A stretch of 64,000 nucleotides of DNA from Bremia lactucae (lineage: Eukaryota; Oomycota; Peronosporomycetes; Peronosporales; Peronosporaceae): positions 2,272,813-2,336,812 of the forward strand of contig NC_090616.1 of NCBI RefSeq assembly GCF_004359215.1, in the 5' to 3' direction. How positions within the stretch are numbered: the first letter of the stretch is position 1; each line of letters starts with the position of its first letter. A program made the translations under genes and the position numbers. Below the pieces are notes generated by a model. The model saw nothing but the letters and a program-made list of their open reading frames with translations, ran no database searches and was not told where the DNA came from. Positions 3,100 to 45,300 of this stretch are shown piece by piece.

Positions 3100-3585
3100 C
3101 TAACAGACGCTCAGAATTTGCGGAATTACACTCTTTGAGCGCCATTGACGTGTATTGCGATACTCAGAAGCGCAATGGAGACAATGATTTTTTTACCCAC
3201 TGTGTGGCATCTGACCGAAGATTTCAAGAACTTGCTCTATCAATGTTTTGAAAGTTGTTTTATGCAAATCGTTGCATATCAATTTACTTTCATTTACAAA
3301 ACCCAGTGCGTATTTTTTTATCTACCGATTGCTGAATTTAATAAATTCAAAGAGAATTTTGGGGATAATTTGCATTGGCTGTTAAATATTCGAATCATAC
3401 AGAACTGAAACTTAAAATGTCGATTCGTCTATGCATTTCATTATCCAAGTTATCTGATCTGTAGTCATCGGAGCGCCCTGTCCAAGTCTTCATCGCAACG
3501 TCTTTGCCTCATCCGGTACATAATTGGTCTTTTCAATGCAAGCGCTGCCGTCCTCTTCGTGAAAGCTAGTGTGTACTGTCATTCC
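3100..3585. other. Intergenic, upstream of the riboswitch
   Basis: I see no convincing gene. A plus-strand ORF at 3145-3408 has no recognisable motif and AT-rich composition. The stretch probably contains the promoter and transcription start of the riboswitch-transporter gene; I could not place a core promoter element with confidence. Confidence 0.4.
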
Positions 3586-3694
3586 ATCAGCGAGGGGTGC
3601 CGTTTGGCAGCCATGGACCAGTTCCATGCGCTGACCGGCTGAGAAAAGACCCTTAGAACCTGATCCGGTTCATACCGGCGGAGGGACTGCTGAT
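3586..3694 (+). promoter_or_regulatory. TPP riboswitch (THI element)
   Basis: The aptamer folds as a canonical thiamine-pyrophosphate riboswitch. P1 pairs ATCAGC (3586-3591) with GCTGAT (3689-3694). The pyrimidine-sensing arm has GGGGTGCC, P2 (GCC 3599-3601 with GGC 3637-3639) and the invariant CTGAGA at 3639-3644. An extended P3 is made of CAGC/GCTG and CATGGA/TCCATG. The pyrophosphate-sensing arm has ACCCTT (3649-3654), P4 (CCCT 3650-3653 with AGGG 3682-3685), GAACCTGATCCGG, and P5 CCGG/CCGG around TTCATA. It lies 141 nt upstream of the transporter start codon, in the 5' leader or a leader intron. TPP riboswitches are established in bacteria, plants, fungi and algae. Confidence 0.96.
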
Positions 3695-3760
3695 TTACTA
3701 ATGTGTTAACGATGCTTGTTTCTTTGTGACTGCGTCCAATCAATTTTAGATTCGAGCCAG

Positions 3761-3824
3761 GTAATTTCTACGAATTGCCCTACTTTTGTAAATAATCCGT
3801 CTTATTATATAATATTGTCCTCAG
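3761..3824 (+). other. Candidate 5'-leader intron between riboswitch and start codon
   Basis: A donor CCAG|GTAATTTC at 3761 and an acceptor TTGTCCTCAG at 3824 bound a 64-nt intron candidate. It ends 11 nt before the chosen ATG (3836). Two very short upstream ORFs (ATG at 3701, stop 3709; ATG at 3712, stop 3729) lie between aptamer and donor. A larger intron with a donor upstream of the aptamer would use the same acceptor and cannot be excluded. Confidence 0.55.
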
Positions 3825-3835
3825 GTTCTATCATT

Positions 3836-5419
3836 ATGCTCGCAAGTAGCGTAACCTATGGCGTCATGGCGGGTACCCTCATCGTCGTATCTGCTTACGC
3901 AATCATTGTAAGTCGACGTATGGAAATTAATTCCGTAACAACTTTTGTCAGGTACGTTGCCTCTGTGATGTCTACTGCCACAATTTTTTTTTCCCATACA
4001 TTTGCTGGGTAGTGCGAAGAACTCGACAACAACGCTACGATTAGCGTGGTGTCTCTTTTCAGCTGGCATCGGGGCTGGGACACTCTTTTCATTCCCTCAA
4101 ATTGGCGTCGATGCCGGATCATGGGGTGTGATTGGTTACGCCATGTCGGGAGTCGTTGGGATGCTCGTGCTGGCGCTCGTGGGTCCATACATGCGGTCCG
4201 CTCTGGGTGAAAACAACACCATGACCGACGTGGTTTCCACGCGCTTTGGCTACACGATGCAGCTGTATGTTTGCGGCATTTCTATGTTTTACCAATTCAT
4301 TTGCCTTGCGTCCGAGTATACGTGCATCGCCCAGCTCACGACCATGTTGTCACCGAATGCACACCCAATCGTCACGATTCTTATTGTCGCATTTCTTACA
4401 AATTTGTACCTGACTATTGGAGGACTTCAAGCAAGTCTTGCTACGGATGTGTGGCAAGGAATTGGCGTCGTTGGCCTCGTGACCGTGGTCTGTGTTGCCA
4501 TGTTTCTCCACGTGTCCATCCCTGCAGACGCGTGGGCAGCTACGAACGTTGCTGCCTTCACGACCGCAGGCTTTGAGACGCTCGTGACGCTTAATATCGC
4601 TGTCACAGCTGCCAGTCTCTTCTTCACGGGCTTTTGGCAACGTGTGTATGCTGCGTACGATGACAATGCGCTTCGCAATGCTGCTTCACTTGCTAGTATT
4701 ATCATTGCACTGTTTACCGTGGCACTTGCGATCGCGGGGATGGTGTCGTACCTTGCCTACCCCGACGGCGTCCTATTCTTTGCCATTTTAATCGACATGG
4801 GTCGTGGCTGGCAAGTGCTGATTGTTGTGGTTATCGCCATGCTCTCTAGTGGAGTCTCCGACTCGATTCAGATGGGACTCGTCGCCGAACTCACGACATG
4901 TTTTCCCAAACTTTCGTTGCTTAATGCTCGTGTAATCTGCGGTAAGTACGATTTATTGGTTATGTGGACGTAGTGTGGTTTACATTTAGTGTGGTGTACG
5001 TAGTGCTGCTAAATGCGCCGGCAATTGCGATTGGGTACCAGCAATATGATATTTTAACGCTATATTTGATTGCGGATTTATTATGTACGGCGGCTGTGGG
5101 ACCAATGTTGCTCTGCACCTGGAAGCGTGCCACTCGTACGGGCGCGATAGCTGGGAGCGCTGCTGGTTTGGTCACTATTTTTGTGTGCGGAGTCATTATG
5201 CAGGGCAAGTTCGTAGGTGGCTTCAATTGGTTCATCTTGCCAGAGGGTCTTTACTCGCAAAACAGCATGATTACTTTTATTGTTACACTTATTATCCCAC
5301 CGATTGTAACCGTGGGTGTGTCGTTGATGACGCAATCAGCCAAAAGCGAAGACGCTAAGGTCGACAGCTACGCACTTGAATTCTCTCCCGTCTTGGAGAC
5401 AACTACCAAGACCTTTTAG
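3836..5419 (+). CDS. Sodium:solute symporter family transporter, riboswitch-controlled (probable thiamine or precursor uptake)
   Basis: Three exons, 3836-3951, 4013-4941 and 5004-5419, join to 486 residues. The introns 3952-4012 (GTACGT...TGGGTAG) and 4942-5003 (GTAAGT...GTACGTAG) keep frame and restore family motifs at both junctions. Exon 1 gives a first membrane segment (GVMAGTLIVVSAYAIIV). After the first junction comes SAGIGAGTLFSFPQIG (residues ~55-70), the family's second-helix motif. TIGGLQASLATDVWQG is the helix 5-6 signature. About 12-13 hydrophobic segments are visible, and the tail is short and polar. The family moves solutes with Na+ across the plasma membrane. Substrate is inferred from the TPP riboswitch just upstream; homologous TPP-riboswitch-linked SSS transporters are described in other eukaryotes. 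Partial decayed copies sit at 21886-22170 and 24753-25035. Confidence 0.9.
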
Positions 5420-15985: not shown

Positions 15986-16626
15986 GTGGGCATCGTGGAC
16001 GCGAGAAAGCTTATCTCTCGGGAAGTCGCAACTTTTACTGGCCCCGCCAATACCGGAGTCGTTCGCTTGTACATTCGTGATTGCGAGGTGTGTCAACGAG
16101 TGGAGCCTAGCCCTCCATCGCGTGCACCTCTACAATCTCTACCACATCCGGCAGAGTGTTGGCAGTTTGTTTTTATGGACTTCGTCTTCGGATTTCCCGA
16201 AGACGGTCACAAAACGAATGGAATCCTTGTTTCTGTAGACAAATTCCGCAAGATGGTACATGTTGCTGCAGTACCAGAATCGATTGCAACTCCGGACTGT
16301 TTGTGTCCATGCCTTTTTTTGACACGGTATTTAAACTCCATAGTTTTACCCCGTGAGATGGTTTCCGATAGATACCCACAATTCACGGCAGAGTTTTGGC
16401 ACTCGGTGTTTCGATCCCTCGGAACACGGCTACTATGTCAACTTCTGATCATCCGGAAACAGATGGTCAGACGGTACGCGTCAATCGCGTCCTCGAAGAG
16501 ATACTTCGAGGTTACGCCCAATTCTATCCAAATTGGAGCGAGTTTATGCTGATGGTCGAATTCGCCATCAATAATTCGGTGCACGCGTCTACAACGAAAA
16601 CCCACCCAATCAGATGGGTCATCTAG
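15986..16626 (+). pseudogene. Integrase, family B, frameshifted
   Basis: The zinc-finger end reads CEVCQRVEP. The core starts FMDFVFGFPEDGHKTNGI with the first Asp, followed by VSDRYPQFTAEFW with the second Asp. The frame then shifts and ETDGQTVRVNRVLEEILRGY is read at 16456-16530, with the catalytic Glu position changed to Val. Inactive. Confidence 0.85.
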
Positions 16627-17055
16627 TTTAAGGGGATTTGGACTCGCACGAGCGAAACGAGTTCTGATTCATGCTCATCCAGCGTCGTGGTTACCGACGA
16701 CGAGAATAATATCGATGTCGAATTAAGCGACATCGGAAAAGAAAACACTCAGCAATAGTGACGACACTATTGCATCAAAAAAATATAGAAAATACTAGCG
16801 ATGATCCTTTGCTGAAACAGAGAAATTTCTCACTGAAGTGCGCACGAAGCGCACTGAAAAAGACAAAACAAATGAGTCAGCAGAACAATTTATGCTGACT
16901 CCACAATCAGTAATCCGTTTCGTTCAGAATTTTATTCTGCTACTGCGGTGGACCGTCAGAAACGGAACGCAGACAAACTTGAAGAGCAAATTATATTTTA
17001 TTAAATATTAATGACCTAGTGTTACTCTGCTGTAAACTTACCTAAGCGTGTAGTC

Positions 17056-17238
17056 ATGGTCGTAAACTACTACCCAAATTCATGGGGCCATTCCATGTAC
17101 TGCATCGCAGAGGGTAATGCGTGCACAATAGAATTGATTCGTAGGATGCGAACGCATCCTACGTTTTATTTTGGTCGGCTCCACTCGTACCATCCGTACG
17201 CGGTTTCCTCCGCGGACGGATCTGACCACCCTTTTTAA
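17056..17238 (+). pseudogene. Integrase C-terminal tail, family B
   Basis: The fragment IELIRRMRTHPTFYFGRLHSYHPY resembles the integrase tail just before a chromodomain position (usually PxxxxxHPVFHVSxLKPY). It is separated from the core by about 400 bases with only stops. Confidence 0.6.
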
Positions 17239-17753
17239 GAATCTCTAAAAGCTTGTTGTAATCACACACCAGAATTTCATGTTACATCTTGAGTTCTCGT
17301 GGCGGATCCGAAGATCCTCGAACCGCGATGACCTGACGACAGCTTATCATGAAGAGCGTGATAATTCCGTTCGTACTCCATCACGGAGTACGTATTCTGC
17401 AAACGGTCTTCCAACCATTCGATATGGTGACCCTGCACCTATCTGCTCTAACGAAAGACGTCTGTAACGCTCGTGATCTGGACCCTCTCCTAATCCGTGG
17501 TGGCAGCGGTCGAGTTTTTCGACCTTCGACTCTAGTTTCTCGACCTTCGACGCTCGTTCCGACACAAACGTCGGAGCTAATTTTCCCTCCTTCTTCACAG
17601 CTATTGATTGTACTGCTTCCAATATACACTGTGGGAAGCATGCCAGCGCAGTTGATCTAGAGAATGTCTTAACCCACCGTAGGCTTTGGTTAAGACACCC
17701 CTTCTTCGGTTGAGGTATTATTGGTAGCTTTAGATTATCCCATTTTGTGATCT

Positions 17754-18100
17754 TGTAACGGGATAAAACCCAATTTTTACTCAAAGCCCCCGTTAGTACG
17801 CTTACAGTATTTAAGGGAACGGTCACCTCTCTAAAATAGGAAGTGCCCCTATCACTTGGGTGTGGTGCACATTGTGACCAACCCTTGGTATGCGATGTCG
17901 ATAACGACATTCGTATTCGAAGGGATGACGGCTAGCGCCTTCCGTTTCGCGAGGTATCTAAGCAGGTATACTCGCAAATACATATTTGTGTTGATTTACA
18001 GAGATAACATAACGAATTTTTTTAAACTAGGTAGTTAAATCCAAATCGTATTAAATATTAATCAGTCTGAAAATCAACTTTCTACCTAGAAAGTGCGCAC
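17754..18100 (+). repeat. LTR-like repeat D, copy 2
   Basis: It begins TGTAACGGGATAAAACC and shares its body with 5594-5940. It directly follows the family B pol fragment and could be that fragment's 3' LTR, but it differs from the LTR at 36843, so this assignment is uncertain. Confidence 0.55.
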
Positions 18101-18132
18101 GTGAAGACACTCAGGGGAGCGAAGACAACAAA

Positions 18133-18423
18133 ATGTCTCATCTCGCCCCTGAGAAGAAGCCGTGGCTTTTACCAGAACGGCTTATCAATAGCTTCGCTGG
18201 AGAGACTACTCCTCACAATAAATATCTCTTATTTATTGCGACAAAGCTACATGGCCTTGATCCCAGCGCGAAGAACTTTCGCGCTAAGGAAGATTTTCAT
18301 CCCGATGCTTTTGTTAAGCATCTCTGTCCAAACCGGACTAGCATGGCCAATATGGCATCGTTATCTACGGTCGAACTTATTCGTTCGACCGCACTCCGTT
18401 CTATGTCACTTAGAAAGGAGTAG
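18133..18423 (+). CDS. ORF homologous to the antisense frame in family B 3' region
   Basis: A 96-codon frame (MSHLAPEKKPWLLPERLI, then ETTPHNKYLLFIATKLHGLDPSAK and a charged tail). The minus strand at 36250-36010 has a closely similar but frameshifted version lying between RNase H and 3' LTR of a family B element. The 3' end of this frame runs into minus-strand gag leader sequence (from about 18340), so the last third is chance. Function unknown. Confidence 0.4.
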   Translation: MSHLAPEKKPWLLPERLINSFAGETTPHNKYLLFIATKLHGLDPSAKNFRAKEDFHPDAFVKHLCPNRTSMANMASLSTVELIRSTALRSMSLRKE

Positions 18424-18510
18424 CTTTCACGCGAAACGTGATGCGTATTCCCACTGTCATCTGACATGTCCATGTTAAATGAAGGAAAAAATATGTGGTC
18501 CTTGGACGGA

Positions 18511-18526
18511 CTTCAAAGTGCTACCA
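18511..18526 (-). other. Primer-binding site, family B
   Basis: On the minus strand TGGTAGCACTTTGAAG starts two bases after the LTR end, as expected for a tRNA primer site (complement of a ...CCA tail). The same site follows the LTR at 32121. Confidence 0.75.
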
Positions 18527-18528
18527 GG

Positions 18529-18976
18529 TGTAACGGGGGCACTACGACTTGTATTGCTTCAGTACAAGTCCACTTCGCACTGCTTCAGTTGCGTGTGGTG
18601 CCTTACGTTACTTCAAGTACACTAGTACGTGCAGAGGAAGACTTTTCTTTAAGGTAACTAGCTAAAAGAGGGTAAAATGAAAACTGTATTAATATAATTA
18701 AGTGTCTCTTCTTTCTATCTGTTAGCTCTAACTTAATTTTAACTAATACTCAACATGCAAGTGAATTCTTATCTTATCTTATCTTATCTGTCTCTCTCTT
18801 CTGTTTATCTCTACAGCTGATTAGTCTGCGTAATAAATAGATATAATGGTCTTTACCTATTTATGGATAAGAATTCTGAGCATTACTATATAAAGTAATA
18901 TCCTCCAAATATTATCTACCTTTTAGATAGTATATTAATTAGCAACCTTTGTCTGTTAATTTCATGTAACGTTACA
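18529..18976 (-). repeat. LTR of family B, with a second partial LTR to 19265
   Basis: Plus-strand TGTAACGGGGGCAC...ATGTAACGTTACA, inverted relative to 6102-6531. A partial second copy of the same orientation occupies 18977-19265, sharing GCGTCCAGCGCTGACTGGAC-like and GCAACCTTTCAATGTTAAT segments. The two LTRs are thus nearly adjacent with no internal region between them. Confidence 0.8.
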
Positions 18977-19269
18977 CCCCGTTTCAGCTAAGGCTCGTTG
19001 TCATTCTATCTTTTAATGCTAACTATATTGTGACTAATACCAAAATACGTAATAAAGTCTTATCTGTCTCTCTCTTTGCGTGCGTCCAGCGCTGACTGGA
19101 CCGCGGAGCTAGTAGATATAATGGTGTATCTCTACCCACTAATAAGCCCTTTAAATATTAGTATAAAAAGTAATATTTTCTCTATTATTATCCACCTTAA
19201 ACATAATGTATTTATTAGCAACCTTTCAATGTTAATATTTATGCAACGATACCCCCGTTACATTTAGGC

Positions 19270-20560
19270 ATACAATGCCTGGGCTATTTTAGCACGAGAT
19301 CATAAAATGGTATAAAAAACTGAAGAAAAAAGTAAGGTTACGATCAAGACATTTATACAATCTTCTGATCTGGCAAAGTTATGAAACGACTTTTAAGTTA
19401 TAATCATAATATCAGTATGTGAAGCCTTCTGTCCAGTTCAGTTAACAAATGACGCGCTTCCAACTTTCTAATTATACCATTCTAAACCGGCACTTTTGGT
19501 ACTAACTGTACTGCTTCCAAAACACACTGTGTGAAGCATGTCAGCGCGTAAAATTCAAATCAGCTGCGAAGATTTGAATTATAGCAAGTATGGTGACGGT
19601 GACTGCCTCATGTTGCGAATAGGTTGCCAAATGTGAGGCCACAATGGTGCAGGTCTGAGTTTTTTTTTTTTTTGTACACATAATTCAGAGTGAGCAAAGG
19701 CAAGACAAATGCAGACTTGCCCTCAAATGTTTAAGGGAGGATTTTATTAACCGATGTTCTGGAATGATAAGTCATAAGAAACCGAACATAACCTGGCCAC
19801 TCTAGAATCATAGTTAGCAATGTTAAGAAATGACTACCTGATTTTAAATTGGCAGCTTTTTGTCATTGGAGAATCTTCAACTGCAAGTATAGGCGATATT
19901 ACTTTTATGTAAAAAGACGTTTGCTTCCTTTTAGAAGAGCACAAAAGATAAAGAAATGGTCCAAGCAAAGCGAAGAAATAAAGAAATTTGCGATCACGAG
20001 ACTTCTATTCTGGCAAAGAAACGGCTCAGGAATTTTTGCCATGAGTCAGAATTTTAATACTTGGTGGATATTGATTTGATCATTTGCCGATAAGTTTCTT
20101 TCGTTTTCCAAGCCAGTCAATTCCAAGCCAATCATTTAAAGCGAAGAAATAAATACGTTTACTACCTCGAGATATTTATATAATCTTCTAATCTGGCAAA
20201 GAGACGGTACAAACATAAAAAGGCTTTAAGAAGTTATGGAATGAAGCCAGATTCAGATTTTCAAATACTATTCAATTGATCATTCGTAAATAAGTTTTTA
20301 TCGTTTTCGTAGCCAGTCAATTCCAAGCCAATCAAAGAAAAACAAAAGTTTGCTACCTAGAGACAGTAATATGATCTTCTGATCTGGCAAAGAGACCGAA
20401 AAAGCAGCAAAAGCTTTCAGGATCTCACAACAGTGATTACGGACATGTTGGCATTCTTTCATTGGTCTAGATAAAATCAGGTAATATCCCAGTAGGCATA
20501 GAGCTACGTAAAGACCTAACAAAAAGATCCATTTCATATTTTGTCCTCTTTTCGACAAGC
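19270..20560. repeat. Degenerate ~185-bp repeats upstream of secreted-protein gene
   Basis: Units share GCGAAGAAATAA, a TTTATATAATCTTCTRATCTGG-type block, GGCAAAGAGACGG, and AGCCAGTCAATTCCAAGCCA. Clear units lie at about 19968-20141, 20142-20334 and 20335-20500. An earlier partial unit lies at 19330. Related units recur at 22690-22780 and 23270-23660 upstream of the broken paralog. A distinct ~400-bp segment (19495-19905) recurs inverted at 22865-23230. Confidence 0.75.
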
Positions 20561-20641
20561 GCGTCCAGTCTTTCAATTATCGAACTCATGCCTTCAGTCT
20601 GTCTTCTTTCCGCCATTAACAAAAGTGCCCGAAAGTATGTC

Positions 20642-21706
20642 ATGATACAATTCATCTTGATGCTGGCACTGGCACTTATGGCAGCCCACCCATTCGTTGG
20701 TGTAGTCGCTGGAACAATAAACGAGAAGCACCAAGCTGCTTCTTTCAGCGAAGCGCGATGGTTTCCACTCGAGAAATTCATGGAACTCTTCACTCGATCG
20801 AAGAAAACAATTCATATTGAAGTCAAGCCTGACGTCTCGGGCAAGTCCGTGCTCGTAAAACTATTTGCACGAAATCCGACAAATCCACCGATCAGTGGAC
20901 CAACCAATTTCGCCTGGGAAAATGTCCCCACTCAACTCTCTCGCTTAAGCCATCATCAGCTCTCAAGCGAAGTATCAAGGCTTCGTGAACTTGTTGGCCA
21001 TCACGTTCAGAAAGAGCTACAGGATGAAGCTGTAACAACCATATTGTTGAATCATTTTGGGATTCGAGGACTATCCGAGTATATCAATAAAGCCATGAAT
21101 TTCCTAGATCTGCCAGAACCCCTTCACTGGCTTCATTCTAAAATGTTACAAACGTGGGCTCGAAACGACCTTTCGCCATCCGCGTTGGCATTTCAAATGT
21201 CTCCAAATGAAGGCACAAGAGACCATAAGGATTTTCTAGCATTTCCGAAATTGCTTTTTAAAAATTACCTTCACCTTCGTAATCCGAATAGCATTACTGC
21301 TCGTGAACTTGAGTACTCGGCCGCGATGCTTGAATGTTACGGTAATCCATTTCCAGATTACTCGGGTAAGGTTCTACCTGAAAAGGCAAGTAGCAACATA
21401 TACAGCGCTGTGGCCGCCGACCTGGACGTGATCATTGATGATAGTGTCGATTTCTTGAATCAACGAAATATACGCACGCTGTTTGTCATTGCGTTTTACT
21501 ACGCTGGCAAATTTGAAAATAAAGATCCGTTTGAATATGTCAAATATATGAGCAAACTCTTCGTAGATGACCATTTCACGCAAGCTGCCAAAGATTCATG
21601 GAATGCCATTGAAGCAAGTGACTTTGACTCGAGGATGACGGAATTTATCAAAATGACTCAAATGGAGCAGACAAAGTCGTTGCGTACAATGGTGTTACGG
21701 ACGTAG
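20642..21706 (+). CDS. Secreted protein, candidate effector (no RxLR motif)
   Basis: A 354-residue single-exon protein if started at the ATG at 20642; an in-frame ATG at 20588 would add 18 residues ahead of the signal peptide and spoil it. The N-terminus MIQFILMLALALMAAHPFVG is a strong signal peptide, with cleavage likely after VVAG. The mature part is rich in predicted helices (LSSEVSRLRELVGHHVQKEL; NIRTLFVIAFYYAGKF; FTQAAKDSWNAIE). I find no RxLR, LFLAK or clear WY motif. The context, a duplicated secreted-protein gene in repeat-rich DNA, fits an oomycete effector. A decayed paralog is at 23877-24551. I do not recognise a family. Confidence 0.75.
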   Translation: MIQFILMLALALMAAHPFVGVVAGTINEKHQAASFSEARWFPLEKFMELFTRSKKTIHIEVKPDVSGKSVLVKLFARNPTNPPISGPTNFAWENVPTQLSRLSHHQLSSEVSRLRELVGHHVQKELQDEAVTTILLNHFGIRGLSEYINKAMNFLDLPEPLHWLHSKMLQTWARNDLSPSALAFQMSPNEGTRDHKDFLAFPKLLFKNYLHLRNPNSITARELEYSAAMLECYGNPFPDYSGKVLPEKASSNIYSAVAADLDVIIDDSVDFLNQRNIRTLFVIAFYYAGKFENKDPFEYVKYMSKLFVDDHFTQAAKDSWNAIEASDFDSRMTEFIKMTQMEQTKSLRTMVLRT

Positions 21707-21885
21707 CCACAATTTCCAAAAGCGATACACAAGCAAGCAGCATAGTACCTATGGCCGCCATCAATGTCCACGGATCCTGAGACTAACGTAGTACAGTTTG
21801 CGCAAAAAAAAATATTTTTAGATTTTGACAAATTTGTTCGTAATAAAAATTACGTTCTTTTAATATTTTCTTTTATGACAATGAA

Positions 21886-22170
21886 GACAGAAAACATTAC
21901 GTTCGTGGCGCGTGGGTAGCTAGCTACGAACGTTGCGATGCCTTGACGACCGCAGGCTTTGAGACGCTCGTTATGCTTTATATCGCTAACACAGCGACTA
22001 GTCTTTTCTGTATGAACTTTTAGAAGCGTTTGATCTGCTGCGTACGATGACACTACCCTTTGCTAGTCTTATAATTGCGCTTTTTGATGCGATCGCGGGA
22101 TGGTGTCGTACCTTGTCTACTCCCAACGGCGTCCTATTCTTTGCCATTTTAATTTATATGGGTCATGGCG
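21886..22170 (+). pseudogene. Fragment of SSS transporter gene (left duplicate)
   Basis: The stretch GCGTGGGTAGCTAGCTACGAACG, CGACCGCAGGCTTTGAGACGCTCG, then CGGCGTCCTATTCTTTGCCATTTTAAT in parts matches 4527-4803 of the intact transporter with small indels and stops. It runs straight into the RING-gene fragment at about 22178. No riboswitch accompanies it. Confidence 0.85.
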
Positions 22171-22177
22171 TAGACAA

Positions 22178-22565
22178 CCAGAAATTCTTCACCGATGCCG
22201 CAGCTACTCGACCCTTAAAGTCTAAGCAATAGACGCTGCAAGCGACTCAATCGACACGGGAGGTTTATTGATCCAATGAACTGCCCGTGTCGTGTCTGGA
22301 TTCTCCACCTGAGCCAAAATTGCGTCTTCCTTTGACTCATGTCGCCATGGCTCCACCGCCCATGAAGCAATCCCTTCAGTGGCACTGTCAACATTTTCTA
22401 ACGACGCTACTAGTGGCAATGCAACGCGCATCTGTCGTGGCGATTTGCCAAACGTGGCTGCATATTGTACTGCTTTTAGCTCCAATGGCACTTGGCCCGT
22501 CGCATCGTACATGGTATGTTGAGACCCCATATAATTCTTATCCAATCGAGCCACGGGCACTGGAG
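22178..22565 (-). pseudogene. 3' fragment of RING-finger gene (left duplicate)
   Basis: The minus frame 22560-22222 reads PVARLDKNYMGSQHTMYDATGQVPLELKAVQYAATFGKSPRQMRVALP in segments, matching the intact RING gene near residues 480-560. It ends with frameshifts before the gene's normal end. No RING domain is present in this copy. Confidence 0.9.
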
Positions 22566-23800
22566 TGAATACTAACGGCTCTCTTCAAAGCGTGTTCTGG
22601 ATCTCATCTTAATTGTTAGACGTATGTAATGGCCTAACGATCGGGGCATTGTAATAAAATCCTGCCATTGCCATTATAGTTTAAGCTTTTAGCAGAGCAT
22701 GAAAGACGAATAAATAAATAATTTAACGATCAACAGACATTTATATATTTTTTCTGATCCCGCAAAATTGTGAAAAGTTATGAGCATGAGATCAGTATGG
22801 AAGCCAGCTGTCCAAATTAATTTATAAGACGACACTTCCATACTTCTAATTATACGCAAAGTCTGCGATTTGTCTTGCCTTCGGCTCACTCTGAATTATG
22901 TGTACGACTCAGACCAGCACCATTGTGGCCTCCTATTTGGCTACCTGATCGCGACATGAGGCTGTCGTCTCCACCATTTTGCTATTATTCAAAACTTCGC
23001 AGCTAATTTGGATTTTATGCGCTGACATGCTTCACACAGTTTGAATTGGAAGCAGTACAATCGATAAAGTAAACTTGTGTTTACATAACAGTAAAAATTT
23101 CTTTAGTTGCAGCTTGGAAGGTTATATCTCCTAGTGACAGAAGGCTGCCAATTTAATGTTCGGGTTATTATTTCATCAACATTGTTGGCTATTGATTTTC
23201 GAGTGGCCAGGTGACGTACAATATGACCGACTTTTGGTTAGTAAAATTACCCATTTACATGAAAGGCATGCTATGCCGGCACTTTTAGCTTTTAACTGAG
23301 CATAAAAGACAAAGAAATGGTCAAACAAATCGAATAAAGAATAAGTCACGATCAAGAGACATTTATATTGAGAAAAAATAGAAGGCTTCAGGAAATTTTG
23401 CAATGAAGCCCAAGTCAGAATTTCGAATACATCGTCCACCCATTAAGTTATAAGCTGTGGTTAAGGGGGATTATAACTTTAGGGGAGATAACTTAGTGGG
23501 GGATGCCTGTACTTGGTTTTTTGCTCGATCGTGAGTAAGTTTTTACCTTATATTAGCCAGTTAAATCCTAGCCAATTTTTTAATGCGAAGAAAGAAATAA
23601 GTATAAACACTAATTTAATCTTCCGATCTGTCAAGGAAACAGGAAAAGCATAAAAAGGTTTCATATTATCACGACATTTAGTACCGACATGTTCATTGGT
23701 CTAGTAGATACGATCATTTACATACAGTAGGCTTAGAGCTACCTAATGACCTAACGAAAAGATCCACTTCATACTGTGTCCTCTTTTCGACAAGTGCGTC
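22566..23800. repeat. Upstream region of the right duplicate, with an inverted block
   Basis: No gene is seen. Segments parallel 19330-20560. The block 22865-23230 is the reverse complement of 19495-19905 (shared GAAGCATGTCAGCGC, AGGCCACAATGGTGC, CATAATTCAGAGTGAGC, CCTGGCCACTC), while both flanks stay in direct orientation. Confidence 0.75.
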
Positions 23801-23876
23801 CAGTCTTTAGATTATCGAGCTCATGCCTTCAGTCTGTCTTCTTTCCGCCATCAACACAACTGCCCGAAAGTATGTC

Positions 23877-24551
23877 ATGATACAATTTATATTGATGCTG
23901 GCACTGGCACTTATGGCGGCCCACCCATTCGTTGGTGTAGTCGCTGGAACGCTGGACGAGAAGCACCAAGCTGCCCCTTTCATCGAAGCGCGAAGGGTTC
24001 CTTGAGACATTCATTGACCTTTTCACTCGACCGAAGAAAACGATACACGTTGAAGTCAAGCCCAGCGACACTGGCAAATCCGTGCTTTGGCACTGAAAAT
24101 GTCTTCAAACAAAGGTAGAAGACGCTTCAAAGAATACGAAAAAATTCCGAGAATGCTTTTAATAAAATACGTTTACACTCGTAATCCGAAAAGCATTCAA
24201 TGCCGCGATGTTCGAATGTTTTGGTAAGTAATTTTCGATACATCTCGATATAGGTTTAGCAGAGAAGGCACGTCATGGCAACACATTTAGCGCTGCAACT
24301 GCCATCCTGGACGTGTCAATTTTTTCGATGAACGAAAAATACGCTTGCTGCTTGTCATCGCGTCATACTACGCTGGCAAGCTTGAAATGAAGGATCCGGT
24401 TAAACGTGTCAACCGTAGGAGCACACTCTTCGAAGGTGCCGCCTTACGCCAAGCAGCCAAAGATTCTTGGAGTACCGCCAGAGGCGATGATTTTGACTCG
24501 AAGATGGAGACCTTGATCATTAAAATTTTAAAAGTTGCCGTGATAACGTAA
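23877..24551 (+). pseudogene. Decayed paralog of the secreted protein
   Basis: The signal peptide (MIQFILMLALALMAAHPFVG and VVAG) is identical to the intact gene. The frame breaks soon after (stop at about 24003). Later pieces are recognisable: DLFTRPKKTIHVEVKP near 24010-24060 and LLVIASYYAGKLEMKDP...QAAKDSW at 24345-24470. The central third is deleted. A short secreted peptide from the first frame is possible but unlikely to be functional. Confidence 0.88.
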
Positions 24552-24752
24552 GTTTTCGAGTTAAGCAACTGAAGACAAGTGGTGCTGACAAAATCGGTGC
24601 GGACAGTAGTACTGCTGCTGTAGCCACAACCATCTTAAACCTAACGTAATTCAAGTCGCGTCGCGCAACAAAAATATTTTATAGTTTGACTAGTTGTTTG
24701 TAATAGAAAATCAGTACTTTTAATACTTTCTTGCATGGAAACTAAGACGAAA

Positions 24753-25035
24753 CACGTCAAGTTCGTAGCGCGTGGGTAATTACGAACGTTGCTGAGGCTT
24801 TAAGTCGCTCGACGCTTACGATCGGGGATAATGGCGTCGTACCTTGCCTACCTCAACGGTGTCCTATTTTTTGCCATTTAAATTATCATGCGTCGTGGCT
24901 AACAAGTGCTACTTGTTTATCTTATCGCCAAACTTTCAAGTAGAGTCTCTGATTCGATTCAAATGTAGACGCTTTCGAGTATAAATCGCATGCGTTCGAG
25001 TTCGTTTTGCAAAAAACTACAAAACAATCGAAGAA
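24753..25035 (+). pseudogene. Fragment of SSS transporter gene (right duplicate)
   Basis: It contains GCGTGGGTAATTACGAACG, GGCGTCGTACCTTGCCTACC, GGTGTCCTATTTTTTGCCATTT, a TCTGATTCGATTCA piece, and a tail that can be read VDAFEYKSHAFEF...QKTTK, like the transporter C-terminus VDSYALEFSP...TTTK. Internal deletions and stops make it dead. It lies convergent to the intact RING gene. Confidence 0.8.
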
Positions 25036-25276
25036 ACTGCAACTTAACAACTACCAATCTTAAGTGTAACACACATTATTTACTTTACACGTAAAAAACC
25101 CTTCTAAAAGTACCTCGAAATCTGTTTCGAAAATCTACCAATCAAGAAAATCTAGTTACCAATATATTGTTGCCGTGATGAAATGGAAGCTAGCAGCACG
25201 TCAAAAACATGTCGATCAAGGTCTTTTTGATCACGAGACTTTATACACACTTGGCCTTCACCACGTCTCCTCTTAT

Positions 25277-27055
25277 CTAATCAAACGTCACAAGATGGGA
25301 ATCCATGCTACTTAATGCAATCGCAAACGCCTGCACAGGTGTAAACGGATGCGCATAGTCCATGGAATACACTTGTCGGTCCTGTGTCCGTCCAAATAGC
25401 ATCAATGTCTTGTCCATTTCATTCGGATACGACAGCAAAAAATTCTTTACCGATGCCGCAGCAACACGACCTCCAAAGTCTAAACAATACGCTTCCAGCG
25501 ACTCAATCCACACGGGCGGTTTATTAATTAAATGCACTGCCCGTGTCGTGTTTGGCATCTCCACTTGGGCCAAGAGTGTGTCTTCTTTTGTCTCAGGATG
25601 CCATGGTTCCACCGCCCATGACGCAATCCCAGTAAGCGCACTGTCAACATTCTCTAACGACGCCACTTGTGGCAATGCCACGCGCATTTGTCGTGGTGAT
25701 TTGCCAAATGTAGCAGCATATTGAACGGCTCCTAGCTCCAATGGCACGTGACCCGTCGTATCGTACATGGTATATTGAGACCCCATATAATTCTTATCCA
25801 ATCGCGCCACGGGCACGGGGGCATTCAAGGGGTAGTCCAATCCATTCACTTCCATCCCATGACTTGCAGCATCCAGATTCGTGGCAAGGGAAATGATAAA
25901 GCTCACCGACATGTCGTACTGTCGACGACGAACCGCCGTGCACAAGAGCGTGTCCGTATCCTGCGTATAGAGCTCATAGTTGCCACCTCCTCGAGTCCGA
26001 ATGTAGCATTGCATCATCAGAGACAATGGTGGGGACGGTGCCATGAGAAATTGAGCGAGTAAGGAGCTATTGAGTCGTGCAGTCTGAATCAAGAGGTGAC
26101 GGAGTGCGACGTCCGCTGGGGGAGGTGGCTCTACGGGTGCTTGATCACACGTAACTAGATGGTCTGCGGCGCTGGCTTTCTTCATAACAGCGACACAATA
26201 CGGACACGTGACGTTCATTTCATTGGCCATGCGTTGCGCATGACGCGACGTTGCCAAGAGCGTAAATCCAATGGTTTCTCGACACATGGGACACGATCCG
26301 CGTTCACTTACCCATCGTTCAATACATTCCTTGCAAAAGATTTGGCCACAACATGTTGCTTCCGTGGCATTTGTAAACACTTCTTGACAAATGGCACATT
26401 CCAGCATCTTGCGAGTATTTTCAAGTGCTTCAAGCTGTTCATCGCGTGGCATTGGTTCTATGGAGGGGTACGCGAGGGTACTGACAAGGTTACTCGCGGC
26501 AAGCGCCGAGGCTGCGGTCCGTTGCCCCAAGTGGCGACTCTTAAGCGCCGAATGGATTTCAAAAAGCATATCCACGACGTCACCGACGCTGTGGTGGGGC
26601 TCCATAGGCTCGACTTCAGGTTCCGGCTGTTCCACGTCCATGACGTCGAGTTGGGAATTCGAAAAGAAGCGATTCCGTCGCAACAACGTGGGTTCTTCAT
26701 CAATAATCATGTGTCGTTCACTCAGTCGATGAAAGCGTCTCGTACTACCCATGAGATCAACAAGACCTTCACCTTCCGCAAAGAAACTCGAGACTTCAAT
26801 GTCCATGTCAAAGCGTTTGTGTCGTGGTGTAATACGAGGACTTGTGCGTGGGGAAAGAAGAATGAGCTCGCTTAACGTTCGTGTACGATGCATTTTGTTG
26901 CTATGTTTCGGTTCCGTGACAACACGGAGACGACGATGGGCAAAACGCGACGCTGCAATAGGAGCAGCACGAGCCTCGCCACTGCTGCTGTTGCTGCTGC
27001 GAGGACTGGACTCATTGGTCAAGCGACTCGGCGTCGACACGAATGTATTGGCCAT
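25277..27055 (-). CDS. RING-finger protein with TRAF-like zinc motif
   Basis: A 592-residue, intronless frame from the ATG at 27055; an in-frame ATG at 27181 would add 42 low-complexity residues and is less likely. A Ser-rich N-terminus precedes a RING at about residues 217-262: CAIC, TCCGQIFCKEC, CPMC. The position usually held by His reads Gln, so the metal ligand set is atypical. A Cys/His pair motif CPYCVAVMKKASAADHLVTC follows at about 280-305, like a TRAF-type zinc finger. The C-terminal half is unrecognised. Such proteins are usually E3 ubiquitin ligases or scaffolds; this role is inferred. A 3' fragment occurs at 22178-22565. Confidence 0.88.
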   Translation of the reverse strand: MANTFVSTPSRLTNESSPRSSNSSSGEARAAPIAASRFAHRRLRVVTEPKHSNKMHRTRTLSELILLSPRTSPRITPRHKRFDMDIEVSSFFAEGEGLVDLMGSTRRFHRLSERHMIIDEEPTLLRRNRFFSNSQLDVMDVEQPEPEVEPMEPHHSVGDVVDMLFEIHSALKSRHLGQRTAASALAASNLVSTLAYPSIEPMPRDEQLEALENTRKMLECAICQEVFTNATEATCCGQIFCKECIERWVSERGSCPMCRETIGFTLLATSRHAQRMANEMNVTCPYCVAVMKKASAADHLVTCDQAPVEPPPPADVALRHLLIQTARLNSSLLAQFLMAPSPPLSLMMQCYIRTRGGGNYELYTQDTDTLLCTAVRRRQYDMSVSFIISLATNLDAASHGMEVNGLDYPLNAPVPVARLDKNYMGSQYTMYDTTGHVPLELGAVQYAATFGKSPRQMRVALPQVASLENVDSALTGIASWAVEPWHPETKEDTLLAQVEMPNTTRAVHLINKPPVWIESLEAYCLDFGGRVAAASVKNFLLSYPNEMDKTLMLFGRTQDRQVYSMDYAHPFTPVQAFAIALSSMDSHLVTFD

Positions 27056-27946
27056 TGCACACACACAAAGGGAAAGGTCTTGACCTGTCGAGACTTTAGA
27101 CTTCCTACTGGAAGTGTGCAAAGAGAGAGAGACGGGAGTGATGGTCCGTGGGGTGTTGGAGTGAAATTTGCAAATGAGCAATGCGGAATTATAGTGTCGA
27201 GTTGTTGTATGGCAGGGACCGCGGAATTGGTGCTTCTATGGCGTGAGTGTAGTGAATCCAAGTGAATACATACTTGCCCTTCCCCTTGACTTCCGTCCTC
27301 CTCGAGTGTTGTAACTCCGTCTCTTCCACGCGTTTTGTGCTGAACCGAGTCGGAAATAAATGAAATAGTATGCGAAATTAAATACCGACTCTACGGCACA
27401 GACGTCCGAAGACGTGTTGAAATGTCGTGGCACTAATCATCGTGTGTAGCGCGTGCTGACAGTAGCAGCAGGTTGCGCCAGATGGTACGACTGCCTCTAC
27501 GACGTTTTTCGTTTCGTGTGCGAGAACGACCTTGAAAAGAAACAGTGGCGCCACGAGAACTGGAAAAGGACGGGGTCGACGGTTACATTAGGGTAACCTG
27601 ATGGGTGAGTCGAGGCAATGGCCATATTCTTTGCTAACGCTCGGTTCTGTAAACATTCTCGTGATGAAGACCAGAAAAAAGATACGACTTTTCGATGCGA
27701 TTCTGTGCTAGTGAAACGCTAACGTCGACGCTTCGTGACGGATAATATGGAGCTTCCATGCCATGGCTCTACTTTTAGTCCTATGTTGCTACATTTAGAA
27801 TAATATTACAAGAAAGGAATACCAGCCTGAATGTGGGAACCAGATTCATGGCAGCTCCGATATCTGATGCAACTTCGACAATATCGGTATTACTGGCGCG
27901 CCATTTCTGACATTTTAGTAACGTGAAGGATTCTACCGGTATGTGC
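27056..27946. other. Intergenic region
   Basis: Upstream of the RING gene, running to the 3' end of the Fe-S protein gene. Several small ORFs (27236-27433, 27781-27975) show no motif. I see no repeat or RNA gene. Confidence 0.5.
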
Positions 27947-40749: not shown

Positions 40750-42735
40750 GACTATTTCGTGGATCTTTCCTTCCTTTAATTCGGCAAGGAACAGATCCCA
40801 CGACATCTCCGGGAGATTTACTATCTCCTCGGCAGATTTAAAGACTTACCGGAGCACCTCAACTGAGAATGCCTCCGCAATTTCGTCTTTGACGGCCTCG
40901 AACATCTCGTTCGAAGGCCCGTCCTCTTTATTAGAGACTGATATAAAGGTCACTCGTTGAGACAAGCCTTTGATCGTCCTAATCTGTCGGGTACTCGCTC
41001 TTCGAGTTACCACGACCTTTTTCTGGGAAGCAGGTGCCGTTGCACTCCTAACTAACTCAACCCATCCAGCCGCACTATGCTCTTGGCACTGTGTCGGTTT
41101 ATGCGACGCTTGACTTCCCGCCAGCTCGCCGTCTACTGCCACAGGCTCTCGGCTCTGTGCAGGACATTCGGACACATGACTACTTGTCATTGCCCTTTTC
41201 ACTACCCCAGTCTCCACGAGATGGGTAGTAATTGGTGACGTTTGACATCCCGTCAACGCACCCTCAACTGTGTTCGACACGACATCAGTTGCATACGCCT
41301 CTCGCAGGAGCACATCCTTTCCGGTGTCCTGCGTAGAGTTCGCAACTGTGCGTGTACGCCAGTCTATCCATGGTTGGTACTTTGCCAACCATGGCATGCC
41401 TAGGATGAGGTCATACGGACTCTCCATACCTAGCACTGTGAACTTCTCTTTACAAGAGAAGTCACTAAAGCTGAAGGCGAGTTCTACCTGAACTCCCTCA
41501 GACTTAACGAGCGCGCCGTTCGCTAAACGAACGGTCGCCTCTTCTCGCTTGCCATCCTGGCAAAGCGACTCAAACATCGCCGGTCTCTTTCTTAGAGCCG
41601 CGAGTTTCACAAAATTTTGTGATGCACCCGAATCCACTAGGAGGGTCATCACCTGGTCATAGCCTCTTACATGAGCGCTATAGACCAGCAGGGTTGAGGT
41701 CCGAAATTTCGAGACCTCAGGGACTATGCTACCCATTTGTTCNGACTATTTCGTGGATCTTTCCTTCCTTTAATTCGGCAAGGAACAGATCCCACGACAT
41801 CTCCGGGAGATTTACTATCTCCTCGGCAGATTTAAAGACTTGCCGGAGCACCTCAACTGAGGATGCCTCCGCAATTTCGTCTTTGACGGCCTCGAACACC
41901 TCGTTCGAAGGCCCGTCCTCTTCATTAGAGACTGATCCAAAGGTCACTCGTTTAGACGTGCCTTTGATCGTCCTAATCTGTCGGGTACTCGTTCTTCGAG
42001 TCACCACGACCTTTTTCTGGGAAGCGGGTGCCGTTGCACTCCTGGCTAACGCACCCCTTCCAACCGCACCAGGCTCTTGGCACTGTGCCGGTTTATGCGA
42101 CGCATGACTTCTTGTCAGCTCGCCGTCTACTGCCACAGGCTCTCGGCTCTGTGCAGGACATTCGGACGCATGACTACTTGTCATCGTCCTATTCACTACC
42201 TCAGTCTCCACGAGCTGGGTAGGAATTGGTGACGTTTGACATCCCGTCAACGCACCCTCAACTGTGTTCGACACGACATCAGTTGCATACGCCTCTCGCA
42301 GGAGCACATCCTTTCCGGTGTCCTGCGTAGAGTTCGCAACTGTGCGTGTACGCCAGTCTATCCATGGTTGGTACTTTGCCAACCATGGCATGCCTAGGAT
42401 GAGGTCATACGGACTCTCCATTCCTAGCACTGTGAACTTCTCTTTACAAGAGAAGTCACTAAAGCTGAAGGCGAGTTCTACCTGAACTCCCTCAGACTTA
42501 ACGAGCGCGCCGTTCGCTAAACGAACGGTCGCCTCTTCTCGCTTGCCATCCTGGCAAAGCGACTCAAACATCGCCGGTCTCTTTCTTAGAGCCGCGAGTT
42601 TCACAAAATTTTGTGATGCACCCGAATCCACTAGGAGGGTCATCACCTGGTCATAGCCTCTTACATGAGCGCTATAGACCAGCAGGGTTGAGGTCCGAAA
42701 TTTCGAGACCTCAGGGACTATGCTACCCATTTGTT
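40750..42735 (-). repeat. 993-bp direct duplication split by an N
   Basis: 40750-41742 and 41744-42735 are direct copies with a few percent differences, concentrated in 40900-41200 versus 41900-42190. The N at 41743 sits exactly at the junction. Confidence 0.85.
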
Positions 42736-42739
42736 CCAC
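41744..42739 (-). CDS. Retropepsin and linker, family F
   Basis: The frame has VDSGASQNFV, the aspartic protease active site, LANGALVKSEGVQVELAF, and DLILGMPWLAKYQPWIDW, the flap and C-terminal blocks. A Ser/Thr-rich linker and a helical segment (MSWDLFLAELKEGKIHEIV) follow and end at the N. The duplicate copy at 41736-40846 has the same active site. Protease would cut the Gag-Pol polyprotein. Confidence 0.85.
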
Positions 42740-42792
42740 AACTCTGAACTTAGGGGTAGCTTCAGAGTCCGCGTCAGTAGGGCATCCCGCCC

Positions 42793-43239
42793 CTACTGTG
42801 CTCCTGCATTTCTCGACCCCTCAGTGGTCGATGCAGAACTCATGCGTCTCGCACGCTTGTTCTTGCCACCGCGTTTTGGAAAGGGATTCCTCTTGCTGGG
42901 CGTCTTCGCCCCAGCAGAGACCATGGCATAGCAGCGAGCCATCATTTGGCCGCGCTTGCCGCATTTATAACAGACCACGTCTGCATTGCCCAACTCCATA
43001 GGAGTGGCATCTGACCTCTCGGCCGACGGCTTATACCAAGCTGTCGCCGAGGCACTGCTATAGGAATGCTCCTCAACAAAGGCAATTTGGATTGCCTCTT
43101 CCATCGTCGACGGCACCTTTCTGAAAAGAGCCTGTCGCGATGGGTCATGCCGTAGTCCGTTCATAAATGTGGGCACCTTTATGTGCTTTGGAATCGGACC
43201 TACGGTTTTGGACGCCAACAGCGAGCGCATCTCTTGCAC
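42793..43239 (-). CDS. Gag C-terminal half with CCHC zinc knuckle, family F
   Basis: It encodes PTFMNGLRHDPSRQALF, then MEEAIQIAFVEEHSYSSASATAW and CYKCGKRGQMMARC, an intact CX2C...C knuckle apart from Gln-Met spacing at the His position (the usual CX2CX4HX4C His is not clear). A basic tail follows. It continues from the frame 43860-43315. Confidence 0.8.
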   Translation of the reverse strand: MQEMRSLLASKTVGPIPKHIKVPTFMNGLRHDPSRQALFRKVPSTMEEAIQIAFVEEHSYSSASATAWYKPSAERSDATPMELGNADVVCYKCGKRGQMMARCYAMVSAGAKTPSKRNPFPKRGGKNKRARRMSSASTTEGSRNAGAQ

Positions 43240-43314
43240 ATACTCTTGCAGAGATCGCTTCGCCTGTCGCGCTCCAAAGAAGCGCGCCTAAAGCAACACT
43301 TCGTTGTTCGGCGG

Positions 43315-43860
43315 CTAGAACATGGCGCGAATCTTTTCTTTTAAGATCGACCATGTAGGGAACGCCTTTCTGTCCTCCATAAGCGCCGAGTAAGCCCACT
43401 CTAAGGCCTTACCGCGCAGATGCGACATGGCGTACGACACCATCCGGCTGTCGTCCTCGATGAGCTGGGCGACACCGCAATGCTCCACGGCTAAAAGCCA
43501 GTGGACAATCGTGTGCGCCGCAGTTCCATCGAACTTGGGCGGGTCCATCCGAATGGGCCTCGGCTGATGCGGCCGGGCAGAGAGCATCTCAACAGTCCTG
43601 TTGAGAGCCTCGCTCCGAGCCTGCTCATGCCTCAGCTCATCCTGAGTCTGAGTGACGGACTCCGCCGCAGCATGGCCTTGTGCTCTCTCGTACCATTCCA
43701 GCCTCGTGTTAGCACGGAAGAAATCGTCAATGACGTCACACTGCTCCCTTGGTAAAGACCATTGTCTTGTGACACAGTATTTGGTTCCTAGAACTAAGTC
43801 AATTTCATGACGAACACTTCTATCCGGAGGTAAAACAGATGGTGGGTTATTACAAACCAC
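43315..43860 (-). CDS. Chimeric frame: family A RT start fused to family F gag
   Basis: Residues 1-57 (VLPPDRSVRHEIDL...LPREQCDVIDDFF) match the family A RT N-terminus at 50976-50800. After YER at about 43689 the sequence becomes family F gag, with a helical segment (TQDELRHEQARSEALNRTVEML) and the gag domain HWLLAVEHCGVAQLIEDDSRMV. The open frame crosses the junction by chance. Confidence 0.85.
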   Translation of the reverse strand: MVCNNPPSVLPPDRSVRHEIDLVLGTKYCVTRQWSLPREQCDVIDDFFRANTRLEWYERAQGHAAAESVTQTQDELRHEQARSEALNRTVEMLSARPHQPRPIRMDPPKFDGTAAHTIVHWLLAVEHCGVAQLIEDDSRMVSYAMSHLRGKALEWAYSALMEDRKAFPTWSILKEKIRAMF

Positions 43861-43872
43861 ATCTTGAAATTC

Positions 43873-45300
43873 CTAAATTAAGGAATAAAAGGGATCCGTA
43901 GGATCTTTAAGGATCGATGACCCATTTCGCGCACTAAGTGCAGCTTTTGTGTCATCCAGGACAGCTTCGTCGAGAAGTGAAGATGAGTTTAACTCAACCA
44001 TAGGTCGAATGACCAACATTTCAGATAAGTCACCAGCTTTTAAGGCTTGACCGCACTCATCAATAGACATTTTGTCTAACTCTAAAAGAGCATGTAACGA
44101 GGGGATTGCCACAAGGCTAACTTCCCCCTTAATGTTACCGGTTACGCCATTTACAAGCGTATGTACTTGCTCACTCGTATCACTTTGTGAGGGTATACAC
44201 GCTTCGTGTCCACCCTGTCTTGCAGTGGAGACAATACGCCTCTTAGAGGCCGGAATATTTACGTCTCCGGGTTTTCCAACCTGTATCGGTTCTATACAAG
44301 ACATGGTGTCTAATTTGACATCCGACAAGGAGTTAGGTAACTCAAATTCCTTATCGAGCGAACGTTTACGTGTCGCTTCACGTGCATTAGGAGGGTTTGA
44401 CCCAAAATGCCCTGGCGAACTGCCAATAGTGTCACTATTGACACTCAGTATGGTGCCACCTCGGCCGACCACACTCGGTGGACTTAGTAGTGACACTCCA
44501 CGTATCTCAAGGATATTGCACCATAGAGGTCCTGGCGAACCGCCACCAGTGTCAGTACTGACACTCAGTATGACGCCACCTCGGCCGACCATACTCGGTG
44601 GACTTAGACGTGCCACTCCACGTATCTCAGGGATATTGCACCCTTGATGATTCGGCCTTAGGCCAACAATGCTTTCAGCATTTAGTGAATCGTTATTATA
44701 ACGAGTGTCACTCGACGGAGTACGTGCCGTTCCACTTATTTCTGCTGAGTCGGGCTCAGAACTAATGTTTTTAACATTAGAGTTTATTAAATCAGACATG
44801 CGAATGTCTAAAACACTGACAGACTCATTCAATGATCCGCGCCAATAGCGCTTTTGTTGCCGAGCAAAGGTGGGTTCATGACTCTCCAAAACTTTGCTAG
44901 GAATAATGCGCGCGGCGCCTAAGGTCTTAGACCTCCAATTGATCCATGGCTCATGGTGTTTTAACCAGGCCATACCAAGGATAAGATCATATCTCGAACC
45001 CAAATCAAGGACGAGACAGCGTTTCATACTGTCAAAGTCCAGAAACTTTATACCTAAGTTCAATGGAACTTTGGGAACAGTGACATGAGTTCCAGTCGCT
45101 AAGCGAACAGTGATTGTATCACCTTCATGCGCTCTAAGCGCCTCAACGTATTGTTGAGTTCCTTCAAGGGAAAGGCGTCGAGCATAATTGCAAGACGCTC
45201 CTGAGTCGATAAAAATTGACCACGGCTTATCAAATCCTTTTACAGTCGCTTGAAAGACTAGCAAGCCAGGCTTGTACTCTCGCCCCGTGCCATTGAGCAC
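43873..45300 (-). CDS. Retropepsin plus linker with 40-residue repeats, family A
   Basis: A 475-residue frame. The active site is [11 protein letters not shown] (residue ~31); [20 protein letters not shown] is at about 104-123. The linker contains two 40-residue repeats ([20 protein letters not shown], then GGVILSVS and SPGP) encoded by a 120-bp minisatellite (44400-44645). The frame is intact here but broken in the sister copy. Confidence 0.85.

Follow-up and report, generated by a model that had tools for sequence, protein, structure and literature searches.

The window analysed here is a 64-kb stretch of the Bremia lactucae genome, and all coordinates refer to it unless another contig or locus is named. 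Its first six kilobases contain an aptamer sequence followed by a predicted transporter gene with three coding exons, arranged as follows.

3579..3585, forward strand: candidate oomycete initiator TCATTCC (consensus YCAYTYY, from PMC3599244), abutting the aptamer
3583..3704, forward strand: complete TPP riboswitch aptamer (RF00059), by covariance-model score
3613..3642, forward strand: candidate 9-codon upstream ORF, AUG context GCCATGG, with its start in P3 and its stop inside CTGAGA
3639..3644, forward strand: CTGAGA, conserved TPP-aptamer motif, by pattern match and alignment to the RF00059 consensus
3761..3824, forward strand: candidate 5'-leader intron, 64 nt, CAG/GTAATT ... TCCTCAG/G, from the sequence and flank counterparts in P. 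idaei
3836..3951, forward strand: coding exon 1 of the sodium:solute symporter, by gene model and homologue alignment
3952..4012, forward strand: coding intron 1, 61 nt, its junction agreeing with the public protein P0001 (CCR75_007835) and close orthologues
4013..4941, forward strand: coding exon 2, by gene model and homologue alignment
4942..5003, forward strand: coding intron 2, 62 nt, where the public P0001 instead fits a 32-nt intron and gains ten residues
5004..5419, forward strand: coding exon 3 and stop, by gene model and homologue alignment

The symporter gene and its relatives

The predicted product has 486 amino acids, counted from the ATG at 3836. Its best protein match is CCR75_007835 of Bremia lactucae (98% identity over 100% of the query), so that the first-pass annotation, made from the sequence alone, was right to recognise an oomycete-like genome; its end coordinate, 5419, falls on the stop that closes coding exon 3. 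The public model is probably in error at coding intron 2, where a 62-nt intron would replace the 32-nt one, since the ten extra residues are missing from all 15 aligned homologues (15 of 47 found).

Scanned alone, the Bremia protein matches no Pfam family at E 0.001, and so lies below the PF00474 (SSF) cut-off; against the NCBIfam 'sss' model TIGR00813 it scores 35.8 bits, under the cut-off of 184. Five of six scanned relatives, four from the oomycete clade and two prokaryotic, pass the PF00474 cut-off (P0003, P0005, P0034, L024 and L031), and the single oomycete-clade protein of the four to fall below it is P0023 of Pythium oligandrum. A profile built from 22 relatives matched 18 distinct PDB sequences, including SGLT1, vSGLT, CHT1, DUR3 and SMVT; a PDB sequence search with the single Bremia protein returned no match. 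The structure model of the Plasmopara orthologue P0005, which is 86% identical to the Bremia protein (pLDDT 85.9, pTM 0.86), has CHT1, SiaT and SGLT2 as its best structural matches (for CHT1, 9bim, TMq 0.80 and E 1.1e-12), and the carriers structurally closest to it transport choline, sialate, glucose and urea. The relatives' profile and the model of the Plasmopara orthologue thus predict an SSS fold, which says nothing on the cargo. As its own Pfam SSF score fails the cut-off, the Bremia protein is filed as SSS by orthologues, profile and fold; on these three lines the family assignment of the first-pass annotation is supported.

A tree of 63 proteins includes oomycete and prokaryote sequences and a single green alga, whose branch is very long; in it the 28 oomycete-type rows form one clade (100/100) on a long stem. 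The Bremia protein groups with those of Plasmopara, Peronospora, P. megakarya and P. idaei, some forks being weak, and the Phytophthora proteins form two groups, of which one has weak support (87/45). No diatom-named SSSP appeared among two homologue searches (about 7994 candidates scored in each), and the viral contigs scanned yielded no relative.

Genome contigs yielded 361 relatives, of which the best 80, all titled bacteria or archaea, were kept; these are 30-38% identical to the Bremia protein. A TPP aptamer over cut-off lies directly upstream, on the same strand, at 71 of these 80 loci (18, 18, 18 and 17 of 20), which are not independent cases, as many are from Halomonadaceae; the aptamer-bearing loci include archaea, Actinomycetota and Pseudomonadota. 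A rescan of the nine others at E up to 1 found a sub-cut-off match in the same place at three further loci (L052, L064 and L095, 48.1-53.7 bits). L046 has a weak truncated match (30.5 bits), at its far end, and L034, L037, L077, L087 and L092 have none, which leaves 6/80 loci without an aptamer in place. At the Comamonadaceae locus L025, a second TPP aptamer (4801-4896) lies about 1 kb downstream of the symporter gene. The prokaryotic loci are like that of Bremia in combining a homologous protein with a TPP aptamer just upstream, but they have no introns, and their likely start codon is in or near the unpaired aptamer tail (in L026, match at 2335-2442 and first ATG at 2432), a position that suggests ribosome-site control.

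Traces of further transporter copies were also observed. Two decayed pieces of a second copy lie about 2.6 kb apart on the forward strand of the window, at 21910-22169 and 24815-25046, with DNA identities of 76% over 21922-22169 and 79% over 24815-24965 and stops in the matching frame; no aptamer remnant was found near them at E up to 5 in 17000-26000. Contig C9 carries at about 871393-871754 (L099 4894-5255) a 362-bp duplicate, 94.8% identical, that spans the end of coding intron 2 and the greater part of exon 3; in the surrounding 9.9 kb no further part of the symporter gene matched. Eight partial SSF-family matches, one with two stops, at about 956894-1169357 of the same contig are possibly an expanded, partly decaying transporter family. 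The window itself further contains a chromodomain (1090-1680), an integrase-like stretch below cut-off (15986-16549) and, on the reverse strand, a 634-codon ORF with a RING finger and then a Tub domain (25280-27181) and four ORFs with retroviral-type aspartyl protease domains (40849-45300 and 51602-52534), which are probably retrotransposon remains.

The TPP aptamer and the 5' leader

The first-pass annotation had recognised a TPP aptamer from its conserved parts and named an Infernal search with Rfam RF00059 as one way to check it. In a cmscan of the whole 64-kb window, RF00059 matches the forward strand at 3583-3704 along its full length of 105 positions; the score is 70.9 bits (E 5.9e-12), compared with a gathering cut-off of 54.3 bits, and no other Rfam match in the window exceeds its gathering score. 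P1 is formed by 3588-3592 with 3688-3692 in the covariance-model alignment and is extended by 3586-3587 with 3693-3694 in the single-sequence fold; P2, P4/P5 and a P3 with a 26-nt insert are visible in the alignment. Folded alone, the stretch 3586-3697 reaches -44.1 kcal/mol (z -2.84, with 2/200 shuffles equally low) and comprises P1 to P5, P3 being long. All the parts listed earlier (P1, CTGAGA, P4 and P5) were recovered in alignment and fold, and the stated 141-nt gap before the start codon proved exact when counted from the last paired aptamer base (3694) to the ATG (3836). The assignment of 3583-3704 to the TPP riboswitches, as a prediction by class, is supported.

A search of the Bremia lactucae assembly, whose 220 contigs total 115.9 Mb, scored 49 of 2421 candidates and returned this single RF00059 match and no second TPP aptamer; further SSF, thiamine-related and paralogue matches (14 loci) have none over cut-off in their surroundings. 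At the level of sequence, then, the single TPP aptamer that the genome search returned is complete and lies directly upstream of an SSSP-type symporter.

Conservation of the leader, its intron and the initiator among oomycetes was judged from N-terminal extensions of public gene models only. The 64-nt leader intron at 3761-3824 is likely, because its joined flanks, just before the start-codon region, translate to QSILDSSQ, which has a counterpart in the N-terminally extended P. idaei model P0004 (QLSLDSSR-FVK-M); there both flanks are adjacent, through splicing or through absence of the intron. The intron contains no ATG. Three candidate donors, 3516 (GTACAT), 3569 (GTGTGT) and 3761 (GTAATT), were chosen among ten GTR sites in 3400-3840, with a candidate common acceptor at 3824, and seven upstream ATGs occur in 3400-3835, including those at 3536, 3613, 3626, 3701 and 3712. 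The P. megakarya gene model P0003 begins MKPLEPDPVHTGGGTA, 14 of whose 15 residues are obtained by translating, in frame 1, the aptamer's P4-P5 half in Bremia, and this N-terminus runs in one reading frame into the transporter. As the start of P0003 is aptamer translation, the aptamer is conserved upstream of the P. megakarya orthologue.

The only YCAYTYY match in 3200-3840 is that at 3579-3585, and the presumed transcription start, A3581, lies 5 nt upstream of 3586, where pairing begins in the fold. The motif occurs 94 times on the forward and 63 times on the reverse strand of the 64 kb, and the forward-strand density puts the chance of one in a given 10-nt stretch at about 1.5%, a post hoc estimate. 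The FPR and DPEP promoter motifs are absent. In P. infestans, an initiator near the start is reported for 53 of 121 high-confidence promoters (PMC3599244). A spliced leader starting at about 3581 would measure 191 nt, versus 32-144 nt in the high-confidence P. infestans set (PMC3599244).

Whether the aptamer masks the 3761 donor, on the pattern of Neurospora THI5, was evaluated by comparing duplex energies with those of sliding windows and of 2000 letter shuffles. Such masking is not supported: 148/2000 shuffles of the 18-nt target pair equally well with P4/P5, and 819/2000 with the whole aptamer. The upstream donors (3516 and 3569) were covered by the sliding scan. A single-sequence fold of the whole leader gave nothing decisive on mechanism.

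Thiamine metabolism and the probable cargo

Six-frame profile searches of the Bremia genome gave no match to NMT1/THI5 (PF09084), THI4 (PF01946), ThiC (PF01964) or ThiM (PF02110), profiles that matched 12, 14, 13 and 11 of 14 control genomes, respectively, the named controls all being prokaryotes; these searches work exon by exon, so that single absences are soft. A lone sub-cut-off ThiE-like match is actually a tRNA dihydrouridine synthase, and the two PF08543 matches most resemble ribokinase and pyridoxal kinase, although each scores under the NCBIfam equivalog cut-off. Thiamine pyrophosphokinase (TPK) is present (137 bits). SLC19-family thiamine carriers gave no match in Bremia, a result that is uninformative because the profile was equally silent in every control genome. 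Taken together, the pathway absences agree with the loss of thiamine synthesis reported for haustorial oomycetes (PMC3130010) and for P. sojae and P. infestans (PMC10499793). Three Phytophthora strains are described as growing on thiamine, TMP or TPP and not on HMP or HET (PMC10499793).

Related transporters have been linked to thiamine: knock-out of the diatom SSSP is reported to abolish thiamine uptake (PMC9544697), and Dur31 of Candida, a more distant homologue, is described as a thiamin transporter under a TPP riboswitch (PMC5997356). The Bremia gene very probably codes for a vitamin B1 importer. Thiamine or its phosphates would be a more likely cargo than a precursor, because TPK was found and no enzyme making or using a precursor was, and thiamine itself is the likely substrate. 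The earlier proposal of 'thiamine or a precursor' is therefore narrowed to thiamine or its phosphates.

Proposed riboswitch control of vitamin B1 import

TPP riboswitches are reported in 15 of 17 oomycetes, with a sodium symporter superfamily transporter group widespread among them (Mukherjee et al. 2018, PMC5882874), and had earlier been described from Phytophthora and, in algae, on three SSS groups (McRose et al. 2014, PMC4260697). The Bremia locus is like these oomycete systems in having a TPP aptamer on a sodium symporter superfamily gene, and like the SSSP of algae, bacteria and archaea in joining an SSS transporter to the same riboswitch class (PMC4260697, PMC9544697). The transporter group is called unique to oomycetes in PMC5882874, whereas the Bremia protein has the prokaryotic relatives described above. 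The aptamers of diatom SSSP genes lie in 3' UTRs, unlike that of Bremia, and are reported as hardly responsive (PMC9544697); algal SSSP genes are mostly single-exon (PMC4260697), whereas in Bremia the 141 nt and a candidate intron stand between aptamer and ATG. Fungal DUR31 / NCU01977 also encodes an SSF-domain thiamin transporter under a TPP riboswitch, but there the aptamer lies within an intron close to where the coding sequence begins and controls splicing (PMC5997356); the gene belongs to another SSS branch, described as SSSQ group or urea-transporter-like (PMC5882874, PMC4260697). A search of one paper library combining riboswitch and Bremia lactucae found no paper. Pairs of switch and transporter are nevertheless on record in further oomycetes and in algae, fungi and bacteria, and the first-pass annotation rated the novelty of the pairing too high, oomycete TPP-riboswitch sodium symporters having been reported in 2018 (PMC5882874). 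What is added here is (i) the coupling to an aptamer in prokaryotic homologues, (ii) the missing precursor enzymes, (iii) a corrected gene model and (iv) an initiator motif abutting the aptamer.

Our preferred reading, with a probability of about 0.8, is that the locus encodes a thiamine importer whose 5' leader carries an off-switch responding to TPP. The symporter would take up thiamine (or thiamine phosphate) from the host by ion-coupled transport, and TPK would convert it to TPP; when plentiful, TPP would bind the leader, close the aptamer and reduce the output of transporter, which would keep uptake in line with need.

Both the cargo and the response to TPP have alternatives. It is very unlikely that the symporter carries something else, such as HMP, a thiamine degradation product or an unrelated solute. 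Marine bacterial SSSP has been proposed to carry HMP or AmMP (PMC4260697), SSS solutes are many, and the closest structures are those of choline, sialate, glucose and urea carriers; however, the searches of the Bremia genome gave no enzyme that uses HMP or thiazole, Phytophthora is reported not to grow on HMP or HET (PMC10499793), and thiamine uptake requires SSSP in a diatom (PMC9544697). The presence of an aptamer is in itself no proof of a switch, because the diatom THIC and SSSP aptamers hardly responded to thiamine (PMC9544697). An aptamer that is conserved, and may bind TPP, yet does not regulate the symporter is an unlikely but documented kind of case: diatom aptamers did not make THIC respond to thiamine, 12 of 13 diatom SSSP genes carry an aptamer, the response of SSSP in P. 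tricornutum was not significant and that in T. pseudonana was a weak fall, by one third (P 0.03) (PMC9544697), and the pairing of aptamer and donor site is not significant in Bremia. Those diatom aptamers are in 3' UTRs (PMC9544697), whereas that of Bremia is in the 5' leader, as at the prokaryotic loci and in algal SSSP (PMC4260697); Micromonas CCMP1545 SSSP mRNA is reported to rise more than 10-fold without thiamine (PMC4260697), the stems and CTGAGA core are intact in Bremia, and near-identical sequence is kept before the P. megakarya gene.

Within the preferred off-switch, two modes of action are near even. The aptamer may steer splicing between donor 3761 and an upstream donor (3516 or 3569) with the common acceptor at 3824; high TPP would then leave upstream ORFs in the mRNA, as happens in Neurospora. 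Alternatively, transcription may start at about 3581, making the aptamer the first structure of the mRNA, where bound TPP would hinder scanning or re-initiation or lower the mRNA otherwise. Neurospora and other fungal precedents act on splicing (PMC5882874, PMC5997356), and a Type I switch of the Neurospora kind has its aptamer within a 5' UTR intron that has two donors and an upstream ORF. Candidate donors, a candidate acceptor and upstream ORFs occur in the Bremia leader sequence; pairing of an aptamer strand with the regulated donor, another Type I trait, did not clearly exceed chance at 3761, given the 148/2000 shuffles that pair as well. Eukaryotic TPP riboswitches without splicing control have been proposed as Type IV (PMC5882874) and for single-exon algal genes (PMC4260697). 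That the aptamer lies outside any intron, in an mRNA starting at about 3581, and that TPP acts on translation or stability of the leader and not on splice choice, has a little less than an even chance. It would fit the sole initiator motif in 3200-3840, which ends directly before base 3586, the P. megakarya model joining aptamer sequence to the coding sequence in one frame, the unsupported masking of the 3761 donor and the 64-nt intron without ATG. Counting against it are the post hoc nature of the 1.5% coincidence, the 53 of 121 P. infestans promoters with an initiator near the start (PMC3599244), the splicing precedents of fungi (PMC5882874, PMC5997356) and a 191-nt leader that is long for an oomycete (PMC3599244). 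The narrower proposal of a cap-proximal riboswitch, with the mRNA start 5 nt before the aptamer and TPP controlling ribosome loading or an upstream ORF instead of splice-site choice, is doubtful.

As the general pairing is already known, the gain is limited to a clean, testable case and is not a new principle. The locus offers a candidate eukaryotic riboswitch that may work outside an intron, and, with the only TPP switch found in Bremia placed on an apparent import gene, it allows a direct test of vitamin B1 sensing and supply in an obligate parasite.
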